This document shows, piece after piece, positions 62,141 to 64,000 of a stretch of 64,000 nucleotides of DNA (position 1 is the stretch's first letter; the number at the start of each line of letters is the position of its first letter). A model generated the notes under the pieces. That model was not told the origin of the DNA, searched no databases, and saw only the letters and a list, made by a program, of their open reading frames with translations. The stretch is from Candidatus Schekmanbacteria bacterium (GTDB lineage: Bacteria; CSSED10-310; JACPHN01). Location: NCBI GenBank assembly GCA_016188575.1, contig JACPHN010000269.1, positions 65,098 through 129,097 of the forward strand, in the 5' to 3' direction. The position numbers and the translations under genes were made by a program.

Positions 62141-62178
62141 AAAAATTTTCGGCTCGCCACCGCTCGCGGCGGCGAGCC
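62141..62178 (-). terminator. Hairpin with U-tract after the subtilase gene
   Basis: GGCTCGCC (62151-62158) pairs with GGCGAGCC (62171-62178); on the minus strand the stem is followed by AAAATTTTT (rc of 62141-62149). It is a good intrinsic terminator. It also lies about 50-90 bp after the candidate DGR variable region, where retrohoming hairpins occur, so a second role is possible. Confidence 0.55.
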
Positions 62179-62230: not shown

Positions 62231-64000
62231 TTACGGAATCCTCGCGCAGCGGAACCCAAGGCCGCTGCCCCCGTTCGTCGGGTAGTACCTGGTGCGGTTG
62301 GCGGAGCGGATAGTCGTGGCGTTGTTGTTCCACGACCCACCCCGTAGGACGCGGGTGGACCCGGAGGATGGGCCCGACGGATTCTGGTACGGGCTTTGCG
62401 CGTAATACCCGCTGTCATACCAGTCGCTCACCCACTCCCACACGTTACCCGCCATGTCAAACGCTCCGTATGGCGACACACCCAGAGGATAACTACCCAC
62501 CGGCGTCGTCTCACCCACGCACTGGCCTCCGTTGTCGAAGTTCGCATACGTGCAGTCCGGGCTCGTATCTCCCCACGGGAAGATCCGCTGGTCCGCCCCC
62601 CGCGCCGCTTTCTCCCACTCCGCCTCCGTGGGCAGGCGCTTCCCGACAGCGGCACAGAATGCCCTCGCCTGCTCCCAATACACGCAGTTGATCGGGTGCG
62701 TCTCTTTCCCGCCCACGTTGTACGTGCAGGGGCCACCCGTATTGGCCGCCGTGCAAGCCCCTCTATCCACGCACGCCTTGTACTGACTCGCCGTCACTTC
62801 ATACGTGTCGATGTAATACGCGTCCAGATTCACCGCGTGCACCGGCCCTTCGTCCAAGTACAGACAGGAGTCCGCCGGCGTCGTCCCGTCGCACCCCATG
62901 ACAAATTCCCCCGCGGGCACCAGCACCATGTTCGAGCTGTCCACCGGCGCTTCGATGACAATCGGCGCCTCCTCCGTCCCGCTCGCCACCAGCCCGCCCT
63001 GCACCTCCAGTGACCACGCGATCCCCGGCGAATGCCTTGGAAACCGCAGCGTCACCCCAGACTCGATCGTTAGCGTCGCGCCCGACATCACCAGCGTGTT
63101 GCCCACCACCTCGTAGGTCCGGCCCGACTCCAGCGTCCGATCCGTCGCGATCACCGCCGGCAGCGCTTCTCCGCCTCCCAGCACCAGGTCAAAACCCCGC
63201 GAGTCGCTCCAACTGCCTTCCCCCGAAAGCGCCAGGGTGAAGCTCGCCGTCACCCCACCCGTTCCCGACACCGCGATCGCGAAGGGGTCGCTGCCGTTGG
63301 TCACCTCCACCGTCGCCGCCAGCGTGCCGAAGATCCCCGCTCCGTCCGTCACCGTCGCGTCCGCGCTCGATTTCGCAAGCGTTCCCGTCACCCCGGACAC
63401 GTCGCCGTAGCCGTTCCGCAACGTCACCTCGAGGGTCACCGTCTCCCCGGGATCCGCTTCACCGTCCCCGTCTCCCCCCGACGAATCGTCCACCGTCACC
63501 GACACCACGCTCACCTCCGGCACCGGTGTCACCGACAACGTCCGCGCCGCGTTCAGCCGCCCTGTTCCCAGACTCGTGTCACCAAGGGCGTCCGTGGTTC
63601 GCCGCAAGTGCTCTCGCACCAGGCCCTCCGACCAACTCGGGTTCCTCGACAGCAGCAGCCCCGCCACGCCGCTCGCGAACGGCGCCGCCATGCTCGTACC
63701 GTTCCACGACGCGTAGGTGTTGTCGAAGAGCGTCGACCAGATCGCCTTCCCGGGAGCTGCCAGGTCCACCCAATCGCCGTAATTGGACCACGTCCACCGC
63801 CCGTCCGCCTCGTCGGTCGCCGCCACCGCCAATACCCCCTCATACCCCGCGGGATAGAAGGTCGTCGTCGCGCCGTTGTTACCCGCCGCTCCGATCAACA
63901 CCGCTCCGCTCTCGCGCGCATAGCCCACCGCGGTGGCCACCGCCTGTGACGAAGACGTGCTCCCCAGGCTCAGGTTGATCACCCTGGCTCCACTGTCCGC
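62231..64000 (-). CDS. Subtilase fused to an FGE-sulfatase-like domain (5' partial)
   Basis: The gene begins beyond the window edge. The visible part, about 590 residues, opens with subtilase sequence GARVINLSLGS; then come the oxyanion Asn in GAAGNNGAT and catalytic Ser in NGTSMAAPFASGVAGLLL. The Asp and His of the triad lie outside. A beta-rich spacer (VTVDDSSGGDGDGEADPGETVTLEVTLRN and a TLESGRTYEVVGNTL segment) leads to an FGE-sulfatase fold: MVLVPAGEFVMGC, YYIDTYEVTASQYKACV, RLPTEAEWEKAARG, GAFDMAGNVWEWVSDWY and RVLRGGSWNNN...GFRCAR. The catalytic Cys of true FGE, expected after RGGSW, is replaced by Asn/Thr, so the domain is likely a binding module. Probably secreted or surface-bound. 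Confidence 0.88.
   Translation of the reverse strand, partial: ADSGARVINLSLGSTSSSQAVATAVGYARESGAVLIGAAGNNGATTTFYPAGYEGVLAVAATDEADGRWTWSNYGDWVDLAAPGKAIWSTLFDNTYASWNGTSMAAPFASGVAGLLLSRNPSWSEGLVREHLRRTTDALGDTSLGTGRLNAARTLSVTPVPEVSVVSVTVDDSSGGDGDGEADPGETVTLEVTLRNGYGDVSGVTGTLAKSSADATVTDGAGIFGTLAATVEVTNGSDPFAIAVSGTGGVTASFTLALSGEGSWSDSRGFDLVLGGGEALPAVIATDRTLESGRTYEVVGNTLVMSGATLTIESGVTLRFPRHSPGIAWSLEVQGGLVASGTEEAPIVIEAPVDSSNMVLVPAGEFVMGCDGTTPADSCLYLDEGPVHAVNLDAYYIDTYEVTASQYKACVDRGACTAANTGGPCTYNVGGKETHPINCVYWEQARAFCAAVGKRLPTEAEWEKAARGADQRIFPWGDTSPDCTYANFDNGGQCVGETTPVGSYPLGVSPYGAFDMAGNVWEWVSDWYDSGYYAQSPYQNPSGPSSGSTRVLRGGSWNNNATTIRSANRTRYYPTNGGSGLGFRCARIP
62244..62341 (-). other. Candidate diversity-generating retroelement variable region
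   Basis: The last coding stretch reads RGGSWNNNATTIRSANRT followed by RYYPTNGGSGLGFRC. In DGR targets with this fold the same segment is varied by adenine mutagenesis. Here ACG, ACT, ACC, TAC, TAC, GGG, GGC, AGC, GGC and CTT can each derive from an A-containing codon (AAG, AAT, AAC, AAC, AAC, AGG, AAC, AAC, AAC, ATT) by changes at A only. The flanks are GC-rich (GGGTTCCGCTGCGCGAGG), and a hairpin follows. The template and reverse transcriptase are not in the window. Confidence 0.5.

Follow-up and report, generated by a model that had tools for sequence, protein, structure and literature searches.

A subtilase with a C-terminal FGE/C-type-lectin-fold tip as a probable remote DGR target

Diversity-generating retroelements (DGRs) are reverse-transcriptase systems that repeatedly rewrite a binding surface. 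Binding tips diversified by DGRs have already been published on kinases, caspases and NTPases. In cyanobacteria, C-type-lectin-fold (CLec) tips are borne by kinases and orthocaspases, with dispersed remote copies (PMC7517822); those targets resemble the one described here in carrying a C-terminal CLec variable region (VR) on N-terminal enzymes, orthocaspase-like peptidases included, and in the dispersal of their remote paralogs, but the enzyme in the present case is an S8 subtilase. Thiohalocapsa PB-PSB1 likewise has FGE/CLec tips on multi-domain proteins at several loci, with broken loci and targets diversified in trans; its targets differ in bearing vWA, NACHT/STAND, CHAT or TIR domains, and the S8 peptidase there is a neighbour, unfused to a VR (PMC10907252). 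Treponema denticola TvpA (2y3c) shares the FGE-like CLec fold and the C-terminal DGR VR with the protein reported here (E 4.6e-22 by sequence, 7e-13 by fold), whilst differing in that the solved protein has no protease domain. The Bordetella phage BPP-1 DGR (AY029185) has a homologous reverse transcriptase (RT; 41% identity) and an adenine-specific mutation system, although its target is a phage tail protein and its template lies between target and RT, whereas in the relatives of the RT fragments considered below the template follows the RT. A subtilase–VR fusion was not found in the open-licence papers searched. Since DGR machinery is encoded elsewhere in the same genome, the locus is best regarded as a further example of a known mechanism and not as a new one; it would add a subtilase to the enzymes on which tips diversified by DGRs have been described.

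The subtilase–FGE gene

The window analysed here, 64,000 nucleotides long, covers bases 65098-129097 of contig C136 and reaches the end of that 129097-base contig, in a 9.2-Mb draft genome of 275 contigs with 3.7% contamination. The gene of interest lacks its 5′ end, since window and contig stop at the same base. The features discussed are as follows.

62231..64000, minus strand: subtilase–FGE fusion gene (ORF of 583 aa, 5′ end cut; Pfam S8 and FGE)
63575..64000, minus strand: C-terminal portion of the S8 domain, including the serine of GTSMAAP (Pfam; motif)
62240..62932, minus strand: FGE-sulfatase / CLec domain (Pfam, sequence, AlphaFold model, fold match)
62258..62356 (about), minus strand: VR (codon alignment of six paralogs)
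62240..62257, minus strand: constant GGGTTCCGCTGCGCGAGG block bordering the VR on its 3′ side, a candidate site for the initiation of mutagenic homing (IMH; identity to paralogs)
62151..62178, minus strand: GC-rich hairpin, either a target hairpin or a terminator (12-bp stem, 4-nt loop, z -3.25)

The fusion proposed in a preliminary description of this DNA is real: PF00082 (subtilase; residues 2-136, E 5.4e-27) and PF03781 (FGE-sulfatase; residues 351-581, E 1.9e-57) lie in one ORF, and the region between them has no Pfam match. The serine of the S8 triad is present in the window gene and the Asp and His positions fall past the contig end; motifs for all three residues are present in a second subtilase–FGE protein, on contig C91, the body of which is 97% identical to that of the window protein and the FGE tip much more diverged. 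By sequence, the FGE domain of the window protein is similar to human FGE, PvdO and the DGR variable protein TvpA, and an AlphaFold model (pLDDT 74, pTM 0.80) matches the folds of the same three proteins. Pfam, model and fold place the VR in the 3′-terminal stretch of a gene for a CLec-fold target, as in DGRs.

Diversity of the variable region and its paralogs

A search of the genome with the last 190 bases of the gene returned five further VR-like loci, on contigs C111, C70, C119, C221 and C91, with 72-81% identity over 180-190 bp. In a codon alignment of the segment running from RV to GFR, nearly all AAC-type codons differ among the copies, and the RGG, RS, P and GFRC frame is for the most part unchanged in its codons. 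For the five closest VRs, in a comparison of paralogs of one genome (not of strains) with the template sequence not in hand, the fraction of variable sites is 0.61 at codon positions 1 and 2 and 0.21 at position 3, whereas in the rest of the domain upstream the corresponding values are 0.25 and 0.47 (VR versus upstream, Fisher p 2.3e-5); variable columns include an A in 37 of 47 cases in the VR versus 71 of 172 upstream (p 5.6e-6), both p values being a guide only because sites within one gene are not fully independent. Columns at positions 1 and 2 with three or four different bases number 27/66 in the VR and 14/350 upstream, and a single third base, C or G, is kept in 20 of the 25 variable VR codons of the five closest copies. 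When the C136–C91 pair is taken alone the codon-position effect is absent (p 0.17), C91 being the more diverged copy.

In these alignments the mutation signature of DGRs is evident in the window VR and in those related to it. The C-terminal segment RVLRGGSWNNNATTIRSANRTRYYPTNGGSGLGFRCARIP, in which a VR pattern had been noticed at the outset, shows diversity relative to its same-genome paralogs that is biased to codon positions 1 and 2, fixed at the third base and beyond chance, and the A-linked variation that had been predicted is seen in the paralog comparison; the VR is indeed located there, although the range first given was slightly short. At the 3′ end of the VR, the GGGTTCCGCTGCGCGAGG block is 89-100% identical between the window and its paralogs, compared with 69-71% for the VR itself, and by the role such blocks have in DGR models it is a putative IMH site.

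Third-position divergence between the window and its four closest copies is 0.06-0.18 in the VR and 0.23-0.32 in the flanks, which points to VRs that were copied, once the flanks had diverged, from one template or from similar ones. Nonetheless, the window and C70 VRs have third-position differences at codon columns 189, 190, 194 and 198; these are not readily explained by adenine mutagenesis, so the C70 template may not be the exact template of the window VR, which may belong to another cassette, or the window gene may be a retired target.

Between 64000 and about 63041 the window and C91 genes share about 97% of their bases. Across the FGE domain, identity per 60 bases then falls to roughly 50-88%; it rises again to 52/60 at the hairpin (62207-62148), beyond which the similarity ends. 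Upstream of its VR, the window FGE domain is 82-85% identical to those on C111, C70, C119 and C221, and 73% identical to that on C91. This pattern of similarity in body and tip fits an exchange of the FGE–VR–hairpin unit between host genes, which we infer from the sequences and which has been suggested for DGR targets in general (PMC8144416); alternatively, the tip may have diverged faster in place. In either case, the two genes present a natural case of near-identical enzyme bodies with different tips.

The hairpin that had been reported after the gene is present and is common to the window gene and the paralogous targets, with loops of CGAG (in the window) or CGTG, but it departs from the published rule. 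Hairpins of phage-related DGRs lie 4-34 bp after the VR and have a stem of 7-10 bp and a GRNA loop, a rule that is not a universal criterion (PMC3240598); here the stem is 12 bp and the distance from the constant block about 65 nt. Given the loop and the distance, the hairpin may instead be a terminator.

The six VR-bearing domains compared are among 22 FGE-sulfatase domain matches in the genome. In the C91 gene (L022), before the S8 domain, an in-frame stretch (PETRNPKLATRNS) inside the protease gene resembles a GAGTTTCGGGTTTC-like repeat.

Reverse transcriptase, Avd and template

The preliminary description had called for an RT and avd nearby. A DGR-type RT and Avd were found in the genome, beside a paralogous target; on the window's own contig, genome-wide searches with RT queries and the Avd profile gave no match, and action on the window gene would accordingly have to be in trans. 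The BPP-1 RT query matches C70:11-403 at 41% identity and, in weak pieces, the end of C111. On C70 the order is target, hairpin, bAvd, RT start and contig end; the bAvd (PF22296, E 5.7e-19 and 4.7e-18 in two profile searches), which itself weakly matches the 23S_rRNA_IVP family, is the sole one in the genome and is intact, as is the N-terminus of the RT. C111 carries, in this order, a target, a hairpin, a truncated avd, an inserted gene and the middle part of an RT (with the motif IGNQTSQ), at which the contig ends. The insert (L018:3400-3970) is a four-helix gene of the 23S_rRNA_IVP type, flanked by GAGTTTCGGGTTTC-like repeats, which takes the place of the last part of avd and the first part of the RT; it may be a misassembly at the repeats.

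The RT of a relative with a complete DGR is 52-56% identical to the two fragments (52% for C70), which on sequence can be placed in the DGR clade. As this complete RT finds only the C70 and C111 pieces, the assembly lacks the 3′ part of the RT; both genes run off contig ends, and no complete RT gene is present. A first RT match, on C164 (PF00078), has by eye the look of a group II intron-type RT and is not counted as DGR evidence. Another match to the BPP-1 query, on C185, was dropped as DruA in Pfam; close to this DruA-like ORF (L073:4298-4828) there is a further FGE gene belonging to the same group. Among viral contigs only RT relatives were found, at up to 49% identity, and a plasmid search gave weak FGE matches only.

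The near-identical template repeat (TR) that had been anticipated is not in the assembly, where both RT genes are cut by contig ends: searches with the VR, with a hand-made consensus in which the variable sites were set to A, and with a pattern of 15 bases from the constant block returned nothing beyond the paralogous VRs and background. Where other genomes carry a related RT, comparing each with itself yields TR/VR pairs with mismatches nearly all at A (for example 18/18, 26/27, 21/22 and 16/17). The order target–(Avd)–RT–TR recurs in these relatives, the TR lying directly 3′ of the RT in the closest ones, and the asparagine codons of their TRs fall in 11/11 cases on columns that are variable in the present genome (p 0.012). 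By analogy, the template here likely lies just 3′ of the RT, off the contig end.

Alternatives, mechanism and likely function

We consider it very probable that the product of this gene is a subtilase with a DGR variable protein as its C-terminal FGE/CLec domain. The initial proposal of a DGR target is supported by the VR signature together with the Avd and RT of the genome, from which we infer that the window gene is a remote target. That an ordinary FGE-fold domain has surface loops diverging under positive selection, with no retroelement involved, might be argued from the RGGS...GFR frame, which is common to FGE domains and through which the human enzyme aligns; however, such selection is not expected to fix third bases whilst both other positions change, nor to leave columns with three or four different bases in the VR segment only, and a DGR Avd and RT adjoin related targets. 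This explanation is very unlikely. The strength of the Pfam FGE-sulfatase match and the FGE fold would agree with an active FGE (a sulfatase-modifying enzyme) fused to a protease, but the positions of the catalytic cysteines fall inside the VR and are non-cysteine in the window protein and in all five paralogs, and we regard an active enzyme as very unlikely. The absence of the catalytic cysteine, noted previously, is thus confirmed by alignment, but is a weak argument for a DGR target, as many FGE-fold proteins lack these cysteines.

A further reading concerns present activity and is not an alternative to a DGR origin: the gene was diversified in the past, has no matching template or intact RT now, and its tip is fixed. 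Absence of the template from the assembly, the breaking of one of the two cassettes by the four-helix-bundle gene and the third-position mismatches to the C70 VR all favour such a retired target; against it stand the intact Avd and RT N-terminus on C70 and the fact that third positions have diverged less in the VR than in its flanks. We consider a retired target possible, if distinctly less than evenly likely.

For an active DGR target, RNA of the template repeat, encoded just 3′ of the RT, would be copied with errors at adenines, and the cDNA would replace the VR of the window gene in trans, with priming at the constant 3′ block. The protease would thereby gain a tip whose binding specificity keeps changing, probably located on the cell surface or beyond it, and proteolysis would be steered to ligands that change with it. 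If the system is active, directed mutation would here diversify the targeting of a protease.

Most likely, the hypervariable tip would guide a protease that is secreted or sits at the surface, a reading by analogy which follows from the extracellular appearance of the domains fused to the C70 and C221 tips. The C70 target has a Big_7/fn3 body and the C221 protein a cohesin/dockerin body with two FGE domains, and both have N-termini that by eye resemble signal peptides. In the relatives, FGE targets are fused to caspase (L081, L095), NACHT (L084) and TIR (L086) domains, resembling published conflict systems (PMC10907252, PMC7159879); an intracellular conflict-system role, as with the caspase and NACHT fusions, may be the less likely alternative for the subtilase. 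A broader proposal, which we put at a little under even, is that the subtilase is a DGR target whose tip is a swappable module (FGE, VR and hairpin) common to other apparently secreted proteins, such that one retroelement would retarget proteolysis and adhesion together. On C111, an ORF that by eye is HELFH metallopeptidase-like lies upstream of the FGE domain, with a run of N between them. The FGE domains of the C221 gene (L021:60-3587) are in tandem, and the first of its VRs is internal, not C-terminal.
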